From: Bradyrhizobium macuxiense
GTDB taxonomy: Bacteria > Pseudomonadota > Alphaproteobacteria > Rhizobiales > Xanthobacteraceae
DNA length: 64,000 nt
Direction of reading: 5' to 3'
NCBI RefSeq assembly: GCF_007993935.1
Contig: NZ_VITY01000010.1
Location: 1 to 64,000 of the forward strand
Part shown: positions 8,523 through 16,458 of the stretch, piece by piece
How the letters are laid out: each line of letters opens with the position of its first letter
How positions within the stretch are numbered: the stretch's first letter is position 1
Made by a program: the position numbers and the translations under genes
The notes under the pieces: generated by a model
What the model saw: the letters and a program-made list of their open reading frames with translations, nothing else
Database searches by the model: none
What the model was told of the DNA's origin: nothing

Positions 8523-8610
8523 GTAGGGCGGGTTAGCGTCAGCGTAACCCGCCGACGCTCTCTCCGGAGACCGCAAGATGGTGGATTACGCTTCGCTAAT
8601 CCACCCTACG
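8523..8610. repeat. Palindromic repeat, GTAGGGCGGGTTAGC type
   Basis: About 88 bp with opposed arms GTAGGGCGGGTTAGCGT and GCTAATCCACCCTAC, the latter the imperfect complement of the former, plus inner complementary parts. It sits between the convergent PCMT-like and DUF938 genes. Only one copy was seen in the window. Confidence 0.7.
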
Positions 8611-9280
8611 ATCGCACAAACATCAAGATCATGTTGTTGGCCGGCATCTCGAAGCTGCCTGCGAGCTTCAGCCCGACGCGCTCCGCGAGCGCCTCGACAT
8701 CGGCGATGTCGCGCACGCCCCACTCAGCATCGCGTTCACGCAGCGACGTATCGAACACGGCGTTGCTGAGCGCGGTGTGCTTGCCGCCGCGCTTGAACGG
8801 ACCGTAGAGGAACAGCCGGCCATCGGCGCGCAAATGCCTGGAGGCGCCGGCGAACAGGCCCTCGGCGACGCGCCACGGCGCGATGTGGATCACATTGGCG
8901 CAGAAGATCGCGAGCAGTTTGTCCGGACCGTTGCCGTCCGACGGTGCCGGCGACCAGGCCGGATCGGACAGATCGATGGGCTGCGGCGGCTGGATGTTGG
9001 CATGGGCGGCATGCGCGCGCCAGGCCTCGATGCTGCGCAGATGCGCGGTATGGAGGTCGCTCGGCCACCAGGTGATGTCGGGCGTCTGGCCGGCGAAATA
9101 GACCACATGCTGGCCGGTGCCGCTGCCGGCTTCCAGCACGTCGCCGGATTGGCCGGCGAGGTATTTCTTGAGGACCGCCCAGATCGGCTGGTGATTGCGG
9201 TGGAACGCCGCCGCGTCGAGCCGCCCGTCCGCCTCAACCGGGCTGCCGTCCTTACCAAACTCCACCACGAACTCCGCCAC
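8606..9280 (-). CDS. DUF938 family SAM-dependent methyltransferase
   Basis: 224 residues. Family features are the N-terminal FHRNHQPIWAVLKKYL segment, SAM motif I DVLEAGSGTGQHVVYFA (about 46-62) and the WWPSDLHTAHLRSI post-motif. The later NVIHIAPW and LFLYGPFKRGG segments are characteristic of DUF938 (PF06080). The substrate is unknown. It is convergent with the PCMT-like gene and divergent from the sox cluster. Confidence 0.88.
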   Translation of the reverse strand: MAEFVVEFGKDGSPVEADGRLDAAAFHRNHQPIWAVLKKYLAGQSGDVLEAGSGTGQHVVYFAGQTPDITWWPSDLHTAHLRSIEAWRAHAAHANIQPPQPIDLSDPAWSPAPSDGNGPDKLLAIFCANVIHIAPWRVAEGLFAGASRHLRADGRLFLYGPFKRGGKHTALSNAVFDTSLRERDAEWGVRDIADVEALAERVGLKLAGSFEMPANNMILMFVRS

Positions 9281-9614
9281 GCCGCTTCTCCTGTGTTAGC
9301 CGAATGTAGACGGTGCAACCGCAGTCGGCAAAATCGGAACCGAAAGGGCAACACTGTTGCTTCCCCTCATTCCGAGGTGCGAGCGGAGCGAGCCTCGAAG
9401 AATGCACGGCCACCGGTCGGGCCGTCGACCCTTCGAGACGGCCGCGTTGCGGCCTCCTCAGGGTGACGGGTGTTATCTCGTCTGTGCGGACCACCACGCT
9501 TCCATTAACCCCGTCGCAACGCGCCTATTCTCCGTGTTGCCAGCCGATGGCCTTTGTGCTTTCCACTCTTTATATTGCGATGGGATCATCGAGATTGAAG
9601 CCCGGGAAACGTCC
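9281..9614. other. Leader region of the sox cluster
   Basis: 334 bases without a credible gene. The first third carries a palindromic repeat (9367-9470). The rest is less GC-rich, with TTTATATTG about 45 bases before the soxX start, which could be part of a promoter; no matching -35 box at normal spacing was found. No SoxR-like repressor gene is present in the window. Confidence 0.45.
9367..9470. repeat. Palindromic element, CTCCTCAGGGTGACGG family, copy 1
   Basis: About 104 bp: left part GAGCGAGCCTCGAAGAATGC, centre CACGGCCACCGGTCGGGCCGT, right part CTTCGAGACG...CTCCTCAGGGTGACGG. Other copies at 15049-15210, 37269-37370 and 58496-58620 share the CTCGAAG/CTTCGAG pair and the terminal CTCAGGGTGACGG or its complement. 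Confidence 0.82.
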
Positions 9615-9962
9615 TTGATCGCCACTTTCGTTAAGCCAGCCTTCGTCCTGGCGCTGCTGGCGGGCGCCGCCATGGCCGCGCCCGCGCAGGCCCAATCCGC
9701 CGCCGAGGGACAAAAGCTCGCCTTCGACCGCGGCAAGGGCAACTGCCTGACCTGCCATGTCATCAAGGGCGGCGACTTGCCCGGCACCATCGGCCCCGAA
9801 TTGACCGGCCTCAAGGCGAAATACAGCCGCGACGAATTGATCGCGATCGTGACCGACGAGACCAAGCGCAACCCGCAGACCGTGATGCCGCCGTTCGGCC
9901 GAAACCGGATCTTGAGCGAGAAGGAAATCAACGCGGTGGTGAACTTCCTGCAGACGCTGTGA
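9615..9962 (+). CDS. soxX: SoxX, monohaem cytochrome c subunit of the SoxAX thiosulfate-binding enzyme
   Basis: 115 residues from a TTG start; no ATG is available in frame, so the start is a choice based on the signal peptide (TFVKPAFVLALLAGAAMAAP, cleavage after AQA near residue 26). The haem site CLTCH is Cys44-Cys47-His48 and the distal ligand is probably Met91 in TVMPPFG, as in SoxX. SoxAX is periplasmic and oxidatively joins thiosulfate to the SoxY carrier cysteine. First gene of soxXYZAKB, 32 bases before soxY. Confidence 0.93.
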   Translation: MIATFVKPAFVLALLAGAAMAAPAQAQSAAEGQKLAFDRGKGNCLTCHVIKGGDLPGTIGPELTGLKAKYSRDELIAIVTDETKRNPQTVMPPFGRNRILSEKEINAVVNFLQTL

Positions 9963-9994
9963 CGCGGCGACATCAGCTTGAGGAGATTTTTTCG

Positions 9995-10489
9995 ATGAAC
10001 ATCACGACCAGCGAATTTCTTGCGAACCGCCGCCTGGTGCTGAAGGGCGCGGGTGTCGCCGCGCTGATCGGCCTTGGCGTCATTCCGTTCGACGTGCCGC
10101 AGGCGCTCGCCGCCGCCAACGACAAATATCCGGAAGAGGCGTTCAAGCAGAAGAACGAGGCTGACGCGATCAAGGCGCTCTATGGCAAGACCGCCGAGCC
10201 CTCGGACAAGGTCAAGATGGACGCGCCCGAGATCGCCGAGAACGGCGCCGTGGTGCCGATTTCGGCCACCACGACGCTATCGGACGTCACCTCGATCGCG
10301 TTCCTGGTGAGCGAGAACCCGATCTCGCTGATCGCGTCCTACAAGATCCCGGCCGGCACGCTGCCGAGCGTCGCCAACCGCATCAAGATGGCCAAGACCA
10401 GCAACGTCACCGTGATCGTCGAGGCCGGCGGCAGGCTCTACAGCGCAAGCAAGGAAATCAAGGTCACCGTCGGCGGCTGCGGCGGCTGA
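9995..10489 (+). CDS. soxY: SoxY, covalent sulfur carrier
   Basis: 164 residues. A twin-arginine-type leader is visible (NRRLVLKGAGVAALIGLG, cleavage near ALAA, about residue 39). The protein ends in GGCGG, with Cys162 on the flexible C-terminal arm that carries thiosulfate-derived sulfur. The ATG follows GAGGAG. SoxY pairs with SoxZ (next gene, 22 bases on) and is the substrate of SoxAX and SoxB. Confidence 0.97.
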   Translation: MNITTSEFLANRRLVLKGAGVAALIGLGVIPFDVPQALAAANDKYPEEAFKQKNEADAIKALYGKTAEPSDKVKMDAPEIAENGAVVPISATTTLSDVTSIAFLVSENPISLIASYKIPAGTLPSVANRIKMAKTSNVTVIVEAGGRLYSASKEIKVTVGGCGG

Positions 10490-10511
10490 ATTCAATTAAA
10501 GGATAATACCG

Positions 10512-10823
10512 ATGGCATCGAGCATTCGCGTGCGCGCCACCTCGAACGGCGACACCACCGAGGTTCAGGCGCTGATCCAGCATCCGATGGATTCCGGTTT
10601 CGTCAAGGACGCCAAGGGTGAGATCATTCCGCCGCATTTCATCCAGGTGCTGACCTTCGAGTATGACGGCAAGCCGGTGTTCGTCGCCGACTGGGGCGGC
10701 GGCGTGTCGAAGGACCCCTACGTCAAGTTCGCCTTCAAGGGCGGCAAGAAGGGCGACGATCTGAAGGTCAGCTGGGTCGACAACAAGGGCGCGACCGACA
10801 CGACCACGGCGAAGATACAATGA
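10512..10823 (+). CDS. soxZ: SoxZ, partner of SoxY
   Basis: 103 residues, no signal peptide; it is exported with SoxY through the SoxY Tat signal in known systems. Family sequence features are the SIRVRATSNGDTTEVQALI start, HPMDSGFVKDAKGEIIPPHFI and the immunoglobulin-like strands to the end (SWVDNKGATDTTTAKI). Its stop overlaps the soxA start (ATGA), indicating translational coupling. Confidence 0.97.
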   Translation: MASSIRVRATSNGDTTEVQALIQHPMDSGFVKDAKGEIIPPHFIQVLTFEYDGKPVFVADWGGGVSKDPYVKFAFKGGKKGDDLKVSWVDNKGATDTTTAKIQ

Positions 10824-11668
10824 CGCGGCGCCTCGCAGCCATCGCGACGCTCGCGCTCGGCATGCTGGCGCTTGCGCCGGCGCACGCGGCCGACAGCGTC
10901 GATCCCGCCGCCGACAAGGCCGCGTTCCAGAAATTCTTCACCACCAAATTCCCCAAGCTCAAGCTCGAGGATTTCGTCAACGGTCCCTATTCGATGAATG
11001 AGGACCTGCACAAGCAGTGGGAAGAGAAGGAGCAGTTTCCGCCCTACGAGTTCTCGCTCGAAGCCGGCAAGGAGATGTTCTCGACGCCGTTCAAGAACGG
11101 CAAAACCTACGCCGATTGCTTCCCGAACAAGGGCATCGGCATCCGCCAGAACTATCCCTATTTCGACGAGAAGGAAGGCAAGGTCGTCACGCTCGAGCTC
11201 GCGCTCAATCGCTGCCGCGAGGCCAATGGCGAGGCGCCGTTCTCCTATGTGAAGGACGACATGGCGGCGCTGACCGCCTACATGGCCTTCACCTCGCGCG
11301 GCAAGCCGATGGACATCAAGATCCCGAACGATCCGCGCGCGCTTGATGCCTATCAGAAGGGCAAGGAGTATTTCTACACCCGCCGCGGCCAGCTCAATTT
11401 CTCCTGCGCCACCTGCCACATCCAGAGCCCGGGCGAACGGATCCGCGCCGAGGTGCTGGCGCCGGCGCTCGGTATCCTGAACGCGATGCCGATCTACCGT
11501 TCGGAATGGAGCGGCATGGGCACCACCAGCCGCCGCTTCACCACCTGCAACAGCCAGATCCGCGGCGTGCCGCTCAATCCGCAGGACGACGAGTACCGCA
11601 ACCTCGAATATTATTTGTCCTATGTCAGCAATGGCCTGCCGATTTCGGGTCCGGGAGCACGGCCATGA
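10820..11668 (+). CDS. soxA: SoxA, monohaem-type L-cysteine S-thiosulfotransferase subunit
   Basis: 282 residues with a Sec signal (residues 1 to about 23, ending AHA). The C-terminal haem site is CATCH (Cys196, Cys199, His200). The catalytic cysteine that ligates the haem and is found as a persulfide in known SoxA is Cys243 in RRFTTCNSQIRGV. In the N-terminal domain the first haem site of dihaem SoxA is absent: only ADCFPN and NRCREANG cysteines remain, which could form the disulfide seen in monohaem SoxA. Overlaps soxZ and soxK by 4 bases. Confidence 0.96.
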   Translation: MTRRLAAIATLALGMLALAPAHAADSVDPAADKAAFQKFFTTKFPKLKLEDFVNGPYSMNEDLHKQWEEKEQFPPYEFSLEAGKEMFSTPFKNGKTYADCFPNKGIGIRQNYPYFDEKEGKVVTLELALNRCREANGEAPFSYVKDDMAALTAYMAFTSRGKPMDIKIPNDPRALDAYQKGKEYFYTRRGQLNFSCATCHIQSPGERIRAEVLAPALGILNAMPIYRSEWSGMGTTSRRFTTCNSQIRGVPLNPQDDEYRNLEYYLSYVSNGLPISGPGARP

Positions 11669-11979
11669 GGGCTGCCATCAAAGCGATCTTTGCTGCGTCA
11701 GCCCTGCTGCTCGCAACTGCAACCGGCGCCCTCGCCGCCTCCGAAGCCGACTACAAGGCGGCCTATGCCGCGGCTGAAGCCGCCAACAAGGAAGCCGGCT
11801 CCCTGCGCAACCAGTGGACCACCACGGCTTCGACGCTCGCCGCCGCAAAAAAGGCCGGTGAGGCTGGTGATTTCGACACCGCAGTCGCCCAGGCCAAGGA
11901 GGCCGAGGCGCTGGCAAAGGCATCGATCTTCCAGGCCACCAGCGAAAAGGAACGCTGGAAGGACATGGAAGTTCGTTGA
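11665..11979 (+). CDS. soxK: SoxK / SAXB, SoxAX-binding protein
   Basis: 104 residues: a Sec signal (IKAIFAASALLLATATGALA, cleavage near 24), then an alanine/lysine-rich helical chain (YKAAYAAAEAANKEAGSLRN to the KERWKDMEVR end), likely a helical bundle. The position between soxA and soxB and the size match SoxK/SAXB, which in Chlorobaculum tepidum binds SoxAX and raises its activity. The sequence is low in complexity, so the name rests partly on gene order. The ATGA overlap with soxA supports a shared transcript. Confidence 0.8.
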   Translation: MRAAIKAIFAASALLLATATGALAASEADYKAAYAAAEAANKEAGSLRNQWTTTASTLAAAKKAGEAGDFDTAVAQAKEAEALAKASIFQATSEKERWKDMEVR

Positions 11980-12013
11980 CACTCAAGAGTTAGGGACGCG
12001 CAGGCGGATGGGT

Positions 12014-12182
12014 TCCCTCCTCCCTTGCGGGGGAGGGTTAGGGAGAGGGGTAAGCCGCACGGGCGGTGTTCGTGGCTTACCCCTCTCTCCAACTCTCCCC
12101 CGACGCAAGTCGGGCCTGCCCGACTTGCGCGAATTTACGATGCGCAACCGGGGTAGACCCCGGTTGCGCGGGGAGAGAGCCC
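12014..12182. repeat. Long palindromic element between soxK and soxB (CCCTC..GGGGGAGGG type)
   Basis: About 170 bp of nested inverted repeats: GAGAGGGGTAAGCC faces GGCTTACCCCTCTC, CGCAAGTCGGGC faces GCCCGACTTGCG, and CAACCGGGGT faces ACCCCGGTTG. It interrupts an otherwise tightly packed sox operon and may weaken or separate soxB expression. Related elements are at 17328-17453 and 28542-28697. Confidence 0.8.
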
Positions 12183-12223
12183 TGCCACCGTCCGCGTGGC
12201 CACGAACCGATGTCGTGAGAGTA

Positions 12224-13972
12224 ATGATCATCCGCCGCCGGGATTTCCTGAGAGCTTCGGCCGCCGCGACGCTCGTGGCCGGCCTGCCCCGCCTCGCGCG
12301 CAGCGCCGATACCGCCAGCGTCTACGACCTCGAGCGCTTCGGCAACGCCCGCATCCTGCATTTGACCGACACCCATGCGCAGCTGAAGCCGGTGTTCTTC
12401 CGCGAGCCCGGCGTCAATATCGGCGTCGGCGCGATGGCCGGCCAGCCGCCGCACCTGGTCGGCAAGGCGTTCCTCGACCGCTTTGGCATCCGGCCCGACA
12501 GCGCCGACGCCTATGCCTTTACCTGCGTCGAGTTCGAGAAGGCCGCCGGCCGCTTCGGCCGGCTCGGCGGCTTTGCCCATCTGAAGACGCTGGTCGACAA
12601 GCTGCGCGCCGATGTCGGCGAGAAGCGCTCGATCCTGCTCGACGGCGGCGACCTCTGGCAGGGCACCGGCCTTGCCAATGCGATGAACGGCGCCGACATG
12701 GTGGAGGCCGCCAATCTGCTCGGCATCGAGGCGATGACCGGGCACTGGGAATTCACCTATGGCGAGCAGGTGCTGCGCGACAATCTCTCGCGCTTCAAGG
12801 GCGAGTTCCTGGCGCAGAACGTGTTCCTGACCGAGGAAGCCGCGTTCAACGACGCCAAGGCGTTCGATCCGGCCTCGGGGCGGGTGTTCAAGCCGTCGAT
12901 CATCAAGGAGATCGGCGGCCATCGCGTCGCGATCATCGGCCAGGCCTTCCCCTATGTGCCGATCGCGCACCCCAAGCGCTTTGTCCCGGACTGGAAATTC
13001 GGCATCCGCGACGACGAGCTGCAAAAGCTGGTCGACGGCCACCGCAACAACGACAAGGTCGAGGCGGTGATCCTGCTGTCGCATAACGGCATGGATGTCG
13101 ACCTCAAGCTCGCCGGCCGCATCACCGGCATCGACGTCATCCTCGGCGGCCATACCCATGACGCGATCCCGATTCCGATCACGGTGACCAATGCCGGCGG
13201 CGTCACGCTGGTCACCAATGCGGGCTCCAACGGCAAGTTCATCGGCGTGCTCGATCTCGACCTCGCCAAAGGCAAGGTCGCCAATATCCGCTACCGCCTG
13301 CTGCCTGTTTTCGCCGAGCTGTTGAAGCCCGATCCGGCGATGCAGGCGCTGATCGACAAGATGCGCGATCCGCATGTCGACGAATGGAGCGACAAGCTCG
13401 GCACCGCCGACCGGCTGCTTTACCGCCGCGGTAATTTCTCCGGCACTGTCGACCAGCTGATCTGCGATGCGCTGCTGAACGAGCTCAACGCCGAGATCGC
13501 GCTATCACCCGGCTTCCGCTGGGGCCTCACCACGCTGGCCGGCCAGCCGATCACCATGGAAGACGTGCTGTCGGAGACCGCGATCACCTATCCCGAGACC
13601 TACGTCGCGACGATGACCGGCAGCCAGATCAAGGACGTGCTGGAAGACGTCTGCGACAATCTGTTCAACGCCGATCCCTACTATCAGCAGGGCGGCGACA
13701 TGGTCCGCGTCGGCGGCCTCGCCTACACCTGCTCGCCCGGCGAGAGCGTCGGCAAGCGCATCTCCGAGCTGAAGCTCGGCAACGGCAAGCATCTCGAGGC
13801 CGGCAAGCACTACAAGGTGGCAGGCTGGGCCTCGGTCAATCAGCAGAACGGCGCGCCGGTCTGGGACGTCGTCGCCAAGCATCTGCGCGCCGGCCGGCCG
13901 CCGAACCGCGACGAGCCCGGCGTGACGCTGAAAGGCGTCGACGACAATTTGGGTATTGCGAGGCACGGATGA
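12224..13972 (+). CDS. soxB: SoxB, thiosulfohydrolase
   Basis: 582 residues from the ATG before IIRRRDFLRASAAATLVAG, a twin-arginine leader. The frame upstream of this ATG is the palindromic repeat. The N-terminal metallophosphoesterase half has the dimanganese ligands, for example LTDTHAQL (Asp49, His51), LLDGGDLWQG, GHWEFTYG (the place of GNHE) and GGHTHDAIP. The 5'-nucleotidase C-terminal half follows from about residue 370. SoxB hydrolyses SoxY-bound thiosulfonate to release sulfate. The length is normal for SoxB. Confidence 0.97.
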   Translation: MIIRRRDFLRASAAATLVAGLPRLARSADTASVYDLERFGNARILHLTDTHAQLKPVFFREPGVNIGVGAMAGQPPHLVGKAFLDRFGIRPDSADAYAFTCVEFEKAAGRFGRLGGFAHLKTLVDKLRADVGEKRSILLDGGDLWQGTGLANAMNGADMVEAANLLGIEAMTGHWEFTYGEQVLRDNLSRFKGEFLAQNVFLTEEAAFNDAKAFDPASGRVFKPSIIKEIGGHRVAIIGQAFPYVPIAHPKRFVPDWKFGIRDDELQKLVDGHRNNDKVEAVILLSHNGMDVDLKLAGRITGIDVILGGHTHDAIPIPITVTNAGGVTLVTNAGSNGKFIGVLDLDLAKGKVANIRYRLLPVFAELLKPDPAMQALIDKMRDPHVDEWSDKLGTADRLLYRRGNFSGTVDQLICDALLNELNAEIALSPGFRWGLTTLAGQPITMEDVLSETAITYPETYVATMTGSQIKDVLEDVCDNLFNADPYYQQGGDMVRVGGLAYTCSPGESVGKRISELKLGNGKHLEAGKHYKVAGWASVNQQNGAPVWDVVAKHLRAGRPPNRDEPGVTLKGVDDNLGIARHG

Positions 13973-14424
13973 CGCGGCGCGCGCTCATCGCGGCGTTTGG
14001 CCTTGCGGCGCTCGCGCTGGCGACGCCGCTCGCCCGCGCCCAGCTCGCGCCGTTGCAGGACAAGCCGTTCGCCGAGCACAAGGTCGTGCTGCAGCTGTCC
14101 GACAACGATCCGAAGAAGCAGGGCCTCGTCCTCAGCGTCGCCAGCAATCTGATGAAGCACTACGACCCCGACAAGGTCGCGGTCGAGATCGTTGCCTTCG
14201 GCCCCGGCATCGACCTGCTCAGGCCCGACAATGCCAACCGCAAGCTGGTCGAGAGCCTGGTCGCGCAGGGCGCGCGGGTCGACATCTGCCTCAACACCGT
14301 CGACACCATCGAGCGCGACACCGGCAAGCGGCCGGACTACATCGCCGCCGCCACGCCTGTGCAGGTCGGCGTCGCACAAATCCTGCTCTTGACCGAGAAC
14401 GGCTACACGCTGGTCCGTCCGTAA
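13969..14424 (+). CDS. Exported DsrE-family protein 1
   Basis: 151 residues, signal peptide 1 to about 24 (LIAAFGLAALALATPLARA). The rest is a DsrE/F-like alpha/beta fold: KVVLQLSDNDPKKQGLVLSV, VEIVAFGPGIDLLRPDN and QILLLTENGYTLVRP. A single cysteine (VDICLNTVD) is at the loop where sulfur-transfer DsrE proteins have their reactive Cys. It overlaps soxB by 4 bases, so it is cotranslated with the thiosulfate system. A periplasmic sulfur-transfer role is inference. Confidence 0.85.
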   Translation: MTRRALIAAFGLAALALATPLARAQLAPLQDKPFAEHKVVLQLSDNDPKKQGLVLSVASNLMKHYDPDKVAVEIVAFGPGIDLLRPDNANRKLVESLVAQGARVDICLNTVDTIERDTGKRPDYIAAATPVQVGVAQILLLTENGYTLVRP

Positions 14425-14433
14425 CACCCCTAC

Positions 14434-14519
14434 CGTCATTGCGAGCGAAGCGAAGCAATCCATGTTTCGTCGCAGGGATAGAATGGATTGCTTCGTCGCT
14501 TCGCTCCTCGCAATGACGG
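14434..14519. repeat. Palindromic repeat, CGTCATTGCGAGCGAAGCG type
   Basis: About 86 bp. The left arm CGTCATTGCGAGCGAAGCGA is the complement of the right arm TCGCTTCGCTCCTCGCAATG apart from one insertion; the inner pair is AGCAATCCAT/ATGGATTGCT. It sits between the two DsrE-like genes. One copy in the window. Confidence 0.8.
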
Positions 14520-14552
14520 GTTAACAGCGGAGCCTCTTCAAGTGAGCTTCCC

Positions 14553-14996
14553 ATGCTTCGCCGTTTCGCCGCCGCCGCGCTGTTTTCGCTTGCCTTCGCA
14601 GCGAGCGCACTCGCCGCCGACAAGCCGCATCGCATCGCGATCCAGGTCGACCAGAACGATCCGCAGGTCATGAATCTCGCGCTCAACAACGCGACCAACG
14701 TGATCGAATACTACCGTGCGAAGAACGAGGACGTGGAGATCGACATCGTCACCTACGGTCCCGGCCTGCACATGCTGCGCAGCGATACCTCGCCGGTGCA
14801 GGACCGCATCAGGCGGCTGAAGGATTTCGTCTTCCCCGGCAAGATCCAGTTCTCTGCCTGCGGCAACACCAGGCAGGGCATGGAGAAGGCCGAAGGCCAC
14901 GCGATCTCAGTCGTCCCCGACGCCACCATCGTACCGTCGGGGGTGGTGCATCTGATGGAGCTGCAGGAGCAGGGCTGGAGTTACGTGAGGCCGTAG
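14553..14996 (+). CDS. Exported DsrE-family protein 2
   Basis: 147 residues, signal peptide 1-22 (FAAAALFSLAFAASALAA). The fold and order of motifs parallel the preceding gene (HRIAIQVDQNDPQVMNLAL, VEIDIVTYGPGLHMLRSD, LQEQGWSYVRP), so the two are diverged duplicates. Its cysteine is in FSACGNTRQGM, the form most often seen in DsrE-like proteins. The pair at the end of the sox operon could take sulfane sulfur from SoxY; this is inference from position. Confidence 0.85.
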   Translation: MLRRFAAAALFSLAFAASALAADKPHRIAIQVDQNDPQVMNLALNNATNVIEYYRAKNEDVEIDIVTYGPGLHMLRSDTSPVQDRIRRLKDFVFPGKIQFSACGNTRQGMEKAEGHAISVVPDATIVPSGVVHLMELQEQGWSYVRP

Positions 14997-15327
14997 GCGG
15001 CTTCTCTTATTGGTTTGCCGCGTCAGCCCCGCGCCCGAAATACGATCCGTCACCCCGCGCAACGGCTTTGCCGTTGTCGCTGGAGGAGCGCGCAGCGCGT
15101 CTCGAAGGGTGCACGGCCCCACCGCCTCCACACGCCGATAGCTTCGCGGAAACTGCCGGGCCGTCCACCCTTCGAGACGGCCGCTACGCAGCCTCCTCAG
15201 GGTGACGGGGGGTAGATTGGAAGGCGACGGATACGGAGTCGCACGGGGATGGATTTGCTTTGAATGCACCCCATCTATGGAATAATATCCTCCCTGTGAC
15301 TCGACCCGGAGAACAGGTAAAGCCGTC
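14997..15327. other. Gene-free gap after the sox cluster
   Basis: 331 bases: palindromic repeat at 15049-15210, then a less GC-rich stretch (GAATGCACCCCATCTATGGAATAATATCCTCC) that may hold the promoter of the persulfide dioxygenase gene. No coding sequence found. Confidence 0.5.
15049..15210. repeat. Palindromic element, CTCCTCAGGGTGACGG family, copy 2
   Basis: About 162 bp, longer than its relatives. Left part GGAGGAGCGCGCAGCGCG and CTCGAAGGGTGCACGGCC; right part GGGCCGTCCACCCTTCGAG and CTCCTCAGGGTGACGGG. Extra inner sequence (CACCGCCTCCACACGCCGATAG) separates the arms. Confidence 0.8.
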
Positions 15328-16368
15328 ATGATCTTTCGCCAGCTCTTCGACAGCGTGTCCGGCACCTACAGCTATCTGCTCGCGAGCCGCGCCGGCGGCG
15401 AGGCGTTGATCCTCGATCCCGTGCTGGAGAAGGCCGACCGCTACTGCAAGCTGCTGCAGGAACTCGACCTCAGGCTTGTGAAGGCCGTCGATACCCATTT
15501 GCACGCCGATCACGTCACCGGCCTCGGCGAGCTGCGCGACCGCACCCAGTGCATCACCATCATGGGCGAGCAGAGCAAGGCCGACGTGGTGTCGATGCGC
15601 GTCTCCGACGGCGACAGAGTGACGATCGAGGGCCTTTGCCTCGAGGCGATGTACACGCCCGGCCACACCGACGATTCGTATAGCTACCTGATGGGCGACC
15701 GCGTCTTCACCGGCGACACGCTGCTGATCCGCGGCACCGGCCGCACTGATTTCCAGAACGGCAGCGCGCGGGCGCAGTACGATTCGATCTTCAATCGCCT
15801 CTTGAGGTTGCCCGAGGAGACCATGGTGTTCCCCGCGCATGACTACAAGGGCGACACCGTCTCCACGATCGGCGAGGAGAAGCGCTACAATCCGCGGCTG
15901 CAGGTGAAATCGATCGACGACTATGTCGAGCTGATGAACAACCTCAATTTGCCGAACCCAAAGCTGATGGACGTCGTGGTGCCCGCCAACATGCATGTCG
16001 GCCTGCACCAGGACGAGCTCGCCAAGGAAGGCCTTGCCCTCAATGCGCGCGACGCCATCGCAAGCCTTGGCCGGCCCGATATCCTGCTGGTCGATTTGCG
16101 CGAGAGCGCTGAACGCGCCAAGCACGGCACGCTCGCCGGCGCCATGCACGCGCCCTATCCGGGGATTTGCGCTACCTTGCAGCCCGGCGGCATGCTGCGC
16201 GAAGTCGCCGCCGCGACCGGCCGCCGCGTCGTGTTCTTCTGCGCCTTCGGCGAGCGCTCCGCGATGGCGGTGGCCGCCGCGAAGAAGGCGGGGCTGGCGA
16301 ATACAGCGCATATCGAAGGCGGCATCGACGCCTGGAAGAAGGCCGGCGGGCCTGTCGTGATGGGATGA
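15328..16368 (+). CDS. Persulfide dioxygenase-rhodanese fusion (ETHE1-like MBL plus rhodanese)
   Basis: 346 residues. Residues about 1-235 are a metallo-beta-lactamase fold with THLHADH (His57, His59, Asp61, His62), His113 in PGHTDDSYSY, GDTLLIRGTGRTDFQ and PAHDYKG: the single-iron ETHE1/Blh pattern. Residues about 250-346 are a rhodanese domain with active-site Cys305 in FCAFGERSAMA. Known enzymes of this type oxidise glutathione persulfide to sulfite. The gene is next to sox genes that lack soxCD here, so it may handle sulfane sulfur left after SoxB. The AHHH regulatory pairing is not visible. Confidence 0.9.
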   Translation: MIFRQLFDSVSGTYSYLLASRAGGEALILDPVLEKADRYCKLLQELDLRLVKAVDTHLHADHVTGLGELRDRTQCITIMGEQSKADVVSMRVSDGDRVTIEGLCLEAMYTPGHTDDSYSYLMGDRVFTGDTLLIRGTGRTDFQNGSARAQYDSIFNRLLRLPEETMVFPAHDYKGDTVSTIGEEKRYNPRLQVKSIDDYVELMNNLNLPNPKLMDVVVPANMHVGLHQDELAKEGLALNARDAIASLGRPDILLVDLRESAERAKHGTLAGAMHAPYPGICATLQPGGMLREVAAATGRRVVFFCAFGERSAMAVAAAKKAGLANTAHIEGGIDAWKKAGGPVVMG

Positions 16369-16372
16369 TCTT

Positions 16373-16458
16373 GTAGCCCGGATGGAGCGCAGCGCAATCC
16401 GGGATTCTCGAAGCCTGCGCGGCTGGTCCCGGATTGCGCTTCGCTCCATCCGGGCTAC
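16373..16458. repeat. Palindromic repeat, GTAGCCCGGATG family, copy 2
   Basis: About 86 bp: GTAGCCCGGATGGAGCG(CA) at the left matches the complement of the right arm CGCTCCATCCGGGCTAC. The inner CCGGGATTCTCG and CCCGGATTGCG segments pair as well. It separates the convergent persulfide dioxygenase and binding-protein genes, a placement like copy 1. Confidence 0.85.

Follow-up and report, generated by a model that had tools for sequence, protein, structure and literature searches.

A sulfur-oxidation (sox) locus with an under-described ending lies on contig C10 of the 8.82-Mb, 48-contig genome of Bradyrhizobium macuxiense, in the 64,000-nucleotide (nt) stretch analyzed here and called the window. 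On its plus strand, between 9615 and 16368, soxX, soxY, soxZ, soxA, a small gene in the place of soxK, and soxB are followed by genes for two DsrE-like proteins, which we call DsrE1 and DsrE2, and for a fusion of a metallo-beta-lactamase (MBL) domain, identified below as a persulfide dioxygenase (PDO), with a rhodanese domain. The locus is real and ordinary for Bradyrhizobium, a genus abundant in soils and on the roots of crops: many members of the genus carry it as a second sox locus, and the dioxygenase gene is co-inherited with it. An initial annotation had read the gene order, soxXYZAKB without soxCD, as a different ending of the Sox cycle, with sulfane sulfur passed to carriers and oxidized as persulfide in the cytoplasm. 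Such a pathway is plausible if it supplements SoxCD with a further exit, but not if it is meant to take over from SoxCD. The fuller proposal, that the locus gives SoxY-bound sulfur an extra, SoxCD-independent exit through DsrE, a YeeE-type transporter, and the dioxygenase, has in our view an even chance of being right.

Results

The last gene of the cluster encodes a protein with the marks of a persulfide dioxygenase-rhodanese (Table 1). The best PDB matches of its MBL part are 4ysb, BpPRF (5ve3/5ve4), and human ETHE1 (4chl), and the motifs are intact, with HxHxDH at 57, GHT at 112, TGD at 128, and, in the rhodanese domain, the loop CAFGER at 305, which is of the CxxGxR type. We take the first three to be the iron-binding motifs of the MBL domain and the last to be the rhodanese cysteine loop. 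The MBL motifs, the cysteine loop, and the PDB matches together bear out the ETHE1/rhodanese fusion named in the initial annotation. The PDO part matches BpPRF (PDB 5ve3-5ve5), presumably a Burkholderia fusion with the same domain order, at E 7e-63, with the rhodanese halves outside the best aligned stretch; unlike BpPRF, the fusion described here is tied to a sox locus. Its N-terminus is not hydrophobic or export-like by hydropathy, and the protein is therefore predicted to be cytoplasmic.

Table 1. Features of the sox locus, in window coordinates
Feature	Position	Strand	Evidence
soxX, c-type cytochrome	9615..9962	+	TIGR04485, 88.1 bits (cut-off 61); one CxxCH (CLTCH at residue 44)
soxY, sulfur carrier	9995..10489	+	TIGR04488, 156.2 bits (cut-off 125); single Cys162
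soxZ	10512..10823	+	TIGR04490, 130 bits (cut-off 76)
soxA	10820..11668	+	TIGR04484, 230.7 bits (cut-off 110); one CxxCH (CATCH at 196)
Small protein at soxK position, hydrophobic N-terminus	11665..11979	+	No Pfam match; named by position only
Inverted repeat between soxK and soxB	12028..12102	.	29-nt arms, 90% complementary
soxB, thiosulfohydrolase	12224..13972	+	TIGR04486, 824.8 bits (cut-off 550)
DsrE1, predicted DsrE fold, export-like N-terminus, one Cys (C107)	13969..14424	+	Model, Foldseek, alignment, hydropathy
DsrE2, DsrE-like, export-like N-terminus, one Cys (C103)	14553..14996	+	PF02635, 22.7 bits (equal to cut-off)
Inverted repeat between DsrE2 and fusion gene	15098..15179	.	22-nt arms, 95% complementary
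Persulfide dioxygenase (~1-227) fused to rhodanese (242-339)	15328..16368	+	PF00753, PF00581
Inverted repeat after fusion gene	16373..16458	.	32-nt arms, 97% complementary

The distribution of the locus was followed in 117 genomes, an even draw from the genus, from which loci were fetched by choice and not at random. SoxB exceeds its cut-off in 112 of them, with 137 matches when pieces of split genes are counted. DsrE1 (>200 bits) is carried by 93 of the 117 genomes and lies within 400 bases behind soxB at 91 of the 137 matches. At 20 other soxB matches soxC comes directly afterward, with a weaker DsrE-like gene roughly 2 kb further along; at nine more soxC likewise follows but no DsrE-like gene is listed, and 17 have neither. 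The fetched loci (138, L018-L155, six of which, L058-L063, are other sox clusters) share an order as far as their contigs extend, in neighbor-gene names given partly by eye from translated starts: DUF938, soxX-Y-Z-A-K-B, DsrE1, sometimes DsrE2, the fusion, and a btuF-like gene, with soxC-soxD inserted upstream of soxX in one group, that of B. jicamae and B. lablabi.

Of the 131 locus copies scored, which partly overlap (L018 and L078, for example) and are not a count of independent genomes, 129 have the fusion, and the contigs of the remaining two end before its position. It is found in all 52 loci of one fetched subset, 12 of which lack DsrE1. On a quick SoxB tree of 118 distinct rows including the window, in which 32 of the 115 inner branches are starred and the rows nearest to B. 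macuxiense include B. tropiciagri, the fewest changes are two for linked soxC and nine each for DsrE1 and DsrE2, the presence of DsrE2 being scored by identity and a bit threshold that may err for fragments. Because the fusion is found in every copy that reaches far enough, and the DsrE genes are patchy, the constant partner of this sox locus is the dioxygenase and not the DsrE pair.

Does this ending stand in for SoxCD, as the initial annotation implied? Of the 91 soxB-DsrE1 matches, 24 have a soxC over its cut-off about 3.2 kb upstream, another 55 have one elsewhere in the genome, and 12 have none; the fusion is kept in all 27 fetched loci with linked soxC. No SoxC exceeds its cut-off in 17 of the 117 genomes. 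Such absence accompanies 12 of the 91 matches with DsrE1 and 5 of 16 without it (p 0.13, no association in either direction), where G030, whose SoxB piece ends a contig and whose DsrE1 is on another, is excluded from the DsrE1-less rows (12 of the 16 were fetched, leaving out G026, G064, G096, and G097). The gene set is thus no response to the loss of SoxCD. Association of soxCD with DsrE1 or DsrE2 along the tree could be examined in only two independent pairs and has no power. We also set aside the narrower idea that DsrE1 and DsrE2 replace SoxCD, given the linked soxC at 24 of the 91 matches and the DsrE-like gene behind classical soxBC at 20.

The core proteins are those of thiosulfate oxidation. 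SoxX, SoxY, SoxZ, SoxA, and SoxB were scored with NCBIfam equivalog models and all five exceed the cut-offs (the soxX start codon was that chosen by a codon-usage gene picker), and SoxY ends in VTVGGCGG, with the GGCGG cysteine arm. Judged from these matches, SoxXA, SoxYZ, and SoxB are true thiosulfate types and belong to the Sox core, as in Paracoccus pantotrophus and Bradyrhizobium locus I (soxXYZABCD). The soxK label rests on position: the gene occupies the same spot in related loci, and its product had no Pfam match at E 0.1 and was not scanned in NCBIfam. Compared with complete Sox, the cluster has the added dioxygenase fusion and is without soxCD, none being present among the genes scanned with Pfam and NCBIfam at 8606-16368; neither were soxR, soxS, soxV, or soxW recognized among the genes there. 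The classical Bradyrhizobium cluster likewise has a DsrE-like gene after its soxCD. In one such cluster (L058:4093-9242) it stands behind soxD in the company of a hydrolase-like gene and YeeE-like genes, and a small gene there resembles by eye a Pfam-DsrE protein encoded on contig C17 of B. macuxiense.

DsrE1 had no match in Pfam or NCBIfam. A phmmer search related it to MTH1491 (E 2.6e-8), and an AlphaFold (AF2) model built from 21 aligned rows, with a predicted local distance difference test (pLDDT) score of 86.6, matched the MTH1491 structure (1l1s) in Foldseek at E 1.1e-9 and a template-modeling (TM) score of 0.92 on the target, with weaker resemblance to DsrEFH and TusBCD. The predicted structure confirms the DsrE fold proposed in the initial annotation, and C107 is invariant across the 21 rows. 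DsrE2, which matches PF02635 at the cut-off, can be assigned to the DsrE family as a diverged copy, 35% identical to DsrE1, and the single cysteines of the two proteins share one alignment position. Their N-termini are hydrophobic and export-like, and the export asserted earlier is predicted from hydropathy. One or two genes with export-like N-termini do not make up a heterohexamer of the DsrEFH/TusBCD kind, which is cytoplasmic and has its three subunits encoded side by side. The start of DsrE1 shares ATGA with the soxB stop, giving the 4-base overlap noted before; of 40 related loci, 35 have an ATGA that coincides with the soxB stop or lies a few bases from it, and in 25 the closest start candidate produces the overlap. 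A 96% identical DsrE1 occurs in B. acaciae and B. uaiense.

The absence of soxCD holds for the cluster and not for the genome. Contig C1 encodes a SoxC (628 bits, cut-off 420) at ~702.9-704.7 kb, with a one-heme SoxD-like cytochrome behind it, and soxCD elsewhere in the genome under the same control had been named in advance as grounds for giving up the proposed ending. Sox in B. macuxiense could be complete but split, with the orphan pair acting in trans, a periplasmic cycle like that of Paracoccus, and no more than a helper role for the DsrE and PDO proteins. The score of the SoxC, its best PDB match (2xts, 3e-105, which we take to be Paracoccus SoxCD), a one-heme partner like that in the linked and classical clusters, and the occurrence of soxCD ahead of soxX in the group of B. 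jicamae and B. lablabi all agree with such a division. In a tree of 74 SoxC rows with a SorA outgroup, however, the protein falls into an orphan clade of 31 rows (support 100/100) that takes in G037, G072, and G080, three genomes 99-100% complete and without SoxB over the cut-off, and that co-exists with linked soxCD in G019, G025, G028, G031, and G044. Since genomes lacking SoxB over the cut-off carry it and it occurs in genomes that also have linked soxCD, the orphan SoxC is a separate paralog not tied to soxB, a SoxC-type enzyme, by its sequence, that need not serve Sox. We recognized by eye no sulfur gene beside it, and its neighbors are common to close relatives and partly to G037, G072, and G080, with little elsewhere. 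The pair may therefore not belong to this Sox system, and we consider a split Sox rather unlikely.

Two observations touch the orphan pair. A P450-like gene (named by eye) beside orphan soxC was considered as a sulfur marker and dropped, since only 5 of the 40 loci read have it close to soxC. G037, G072, and G080 (loci L179-L181) have the orphan soxC-soxD-like pair without SoxB over the cut-off and without a YeeE ortholog, and offer a natural case for probing the role of orphan SoxC.

Known cytoplasmic routes for sulfane sulfur, the other subject of the genome search that had been called for, were not seen, because the best DsrA match reaches 43.5 bits against a cut-off of 392.85 and the sole gene with CCG domains is glcF-like. 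That gene holds both CCG domains, the domain expected of HdrB-type sHdr proteins, and adjoins a GlcE-like gene (the GlcE and GlcF names being given by eye); DsrB and the other sHdr parts were not searched. A dsr or shdr system elsewhere in the genome was rejected on these grounds. The genome does encode SorA (690 bits, cut-off 600).

A candidate importer is also encoded. Contig C2 carries a full-length YeeE gene of 351 amino acids whose Cys28, Cys102, and Cys308 stand at the conserved cysteine positions of the family (positions from PMC11582611); against the ~330-350 amino acids and three cysteines of the family it fits SoxT/YeeE, with SoxT1, SoxT2, and TsuA taken together. A half-size YeeE pair is found on contig C12. 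Full-length YeeE is matched (E 1e-30) in 114 of the 117 genomes, with at least 69% identity in 113, and the three without it, G037, G072, and G080, are the three SoxB-less ones among genomes at least 90% complete, a co-absence with a chance of 1 in 210,000 by plain counting that ignores kinship. The remaining two genomes that lack SoxB over the cut-off, G089 (87% complete) and G099 (81%), carry fragments of the gene.

Outside the genus, the DsrE pair can be found next to such a transporter. In G347, of the same family and another genus, YeeE, DsrE1, and DsrE2 genes are consecutive in a sox island (L235:7897-18298), followed by a second YeeE, genes for ArsR-like, thioredoxin-like, and CcdA-like proteins, and soxY, soxZ, soxB, and soxC. 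The YeeE, DsrE, and Sox labels come from matches, and the other three are tentative names given from the look of the sequences. DsrE1, DsrE2, and the first YeeE of G347 are 61, 65, and 60% identical to those of B. macuxiense. A DsrE1/2-like match was obtained in 53 of 249 sampled genomes of the order, and 46 of the 53 are not Bradyrhizobium; 20 of these 46 loci were fetched, and sox genes are found in five and a thioredoxin gene, presumably SoxW-like, in three more.

Discussion

We propose the following route. SoxXA would put thiosulfate on SoxYZ and SoxB would cleave off sulfate, as known for these families, after which periplasmic DsrE-fold proteins could accept the SoxY sulfane sulfur on their single cysteine. 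A YeeE/YedE-type transporter encoded elsewhere may then move the sulfur into the cytoplasm, where it would arrive in persulfide form at glutathione or the rhodanese domain. By analogy with the ETHE1 and BpPRF families, the dioxygenase domain would then oxidize it to sulfite. The sulfite could re-form thiosulfate or go to the SorA-type sulfite dehydrogenase encoded elsewhere. In loci with linked soxCD such an exit would run beside SoxCD; in genomes that, like B. macuxiense, have only an orphan SoxCD-like pair, it may be the principal route. The presence of the fusion in nearly all scored copies and the YeeE-DsrE arrangement of G347 make an extra exit of this kind plausible, in part as the initial annotation had it. 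More specifically, the DsrE pair may hand sulfur from SoxYZ to a YeeE importer and on to the dioxygenase-rhodanese, which would constitute a third natural Sox ending in addition to SoxCD and to Dsr/sHdr, widespread in Bradyrhizobium; we offer this version tentatively and consider it doubtful.

Parts of this route have precedents. In Cupriavidus pinatubonensis JMP134 from which soxCD was deleted, PDO together with glutathione oxidizes sulfane sulfur, and H2S escapes when PDO is missing (PMC9959259). The Sox system there is likewise incomplete and its sulfane sulfur goes to PDO, through an engineered deletion, whereas Bradyrhizobium has a rhodanese fusion gene and DsrE-like genes linked to sox naturally and throughout the genus. 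Hyphomicrobium denitrificans, which has a truncated Sox with sHdr and SoxT (PMC10451225, PMC11582611), shares a Sox system with no soxCD linked to it, a YeeE-type gene, and a proposed cytoplasmic end. In contrast to that system, CCG domains in B. macuxiense occur only in the glcF-like gene and the end enzyme would be a dioxygenase; in addition, DsrE3C is described as cytoplasmic in H. denitrificans (PMC11582611), whereas the DsrE-like proteins found here look exported. Import by SoxT1A has been proposed for Hyphomicrobium, with the warning that SoxT is not distributed as would be expected of a general importer (PMC11582611). In two type strains of Sulfitobacter, a "DsrE family protein" gene lies between soxB and soxC, listed there among genes of unknown function (PMC11034169); it is directly behind soxB as in our locus, and soxC follows only in Sulfitobacter. 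We found no precedent for a periplasmic DsrE step in the literature searched, and by this comparison that step would be the new part of the proposal, the dioxygenase and import parts having precedents.

Several observations weigh against the proposed exit. In 40 loci a gap of 74-1921 bases separates the fusion gene from DsrE1, with no operon overlap, and an inverted repeat precedes it in B. macuxiense. The presence of DsrE1 and of DsrE2 requires at least nine changes each on the SoxB tree, a count that starred branches may inflate; read mostly as losses, these changes suggest that neither protein is essential. The YeeE gene on contig C2 is not linked to sox, with no neighbor recognized by eye as a sulfur gene, and because G037, G072, and G080 form one clade, their joint lack of YeeE and SoxB is perhaps one event; moreover, G035 (80% complete) has SoxB and only a 36% identical YeeE. 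Outside the genus, 12 of the 20 fetched loci have no sox or SoxW-like gene in the stretch, some being short contigs. Finally, thiosulfate oxidation by B. diazoefficiens needed only soxY1 of locus I and not the second soxY (PMC5748708), which probably belongs to the locus described here. For B. elkanii, our literature search found no paper on thiosulfate oxidation.

The frequent gain or loss of DsrE1 and DsrE2 would also be expected if the fusion and the DsrE proteins act as a safety valve, clearing or buffering stray persulfide from Sox while the bulk of the sulfur leaves through SoxCD, by sulfur excretion, or as tetrathionate. That the fusion is retained with or without linked soxCD fits this too, as does the finding that a pdo double deletion in Cupriavidus resembles the wild type on thiosulfate, PDO mattering once soxCD was removed (PMC9959259). 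The B. macuxiense locus, however, has no linked soxC to carry the bulk, and retention of the fusion in every copy that reaches it is strong for a mere valve. We judge this explanation improbable.

The second soxY of B. diazoefficiens is dispensable for thiosulfate oxidation (PMC5748708), and the locus might serve a role other than thiosulfate respiration, such as the clearing of sulfide, the handling of persulfide derived from organosulfur compounds, or sulfur signaling. Sox-like parts do seem to be reused in B. macuxiense, which also encodes a flavoprotein-soxXYZA-like cluster and a PQQ-type SoxYZ relay, but SoxB and SoxY of the window are over the cut-offs for the true thiosulfate types, and we regard such a role as very improbable.

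The passage of SoxY-bound sulfur to the cytoplasm in organisms with a truncated Sox system has been called "still a mystery" (PMC10451225). The Bradyrhizobium locus offers candidates for this hand-over, and a sister genus places the DsrE pair beside a transporter gene. Since 93 of 117 genomes carry DsrE1, whether thiosulfate ends as sulfate, as sulfite, in a thiosulfate loop, or as H2S would depend on the ending used. The natural variation within the genus, including the absence of DsrE1 from many copies, linkage of soxCD in one group, and the 17 genomes without SoxC over the cut-off, supplies ready-made comparisons.

Additional features of the locus and genome are of interest. Because inverted repeats lie both before and after the fusion gene (Table 1), its co-transcription with soxB is not assured. 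Palindromic repeats were also seen by eye at 9370-9470 and 14440-14520; repeats of this kind, which occupy several of the gaps between the clustered genes, may serve to terminate or modulate transcripts.

Contig C2 carries a partial sox set (L012:6472-9634) composed of genes for a flavoprotein with weak resemblance to sulfide:quinone reductase (87 bits, below the cut-off), SoxX (71 bits, cut-off 61), a SoxY of the AACIE paralog type (227 bits, cut-off 172), SoxZ (89 bits, cut-off 76), and SoxA (236 bits, cut-off 110), with no soxB among the genes listed in the set. On contig C7 (L013:7939-9733), a pyrroloquinoline quinone (PQQ)-type SoxYZ fusion carrier is encoded together with a SoxH-related zinc hydrolase, both over their cut-offs.

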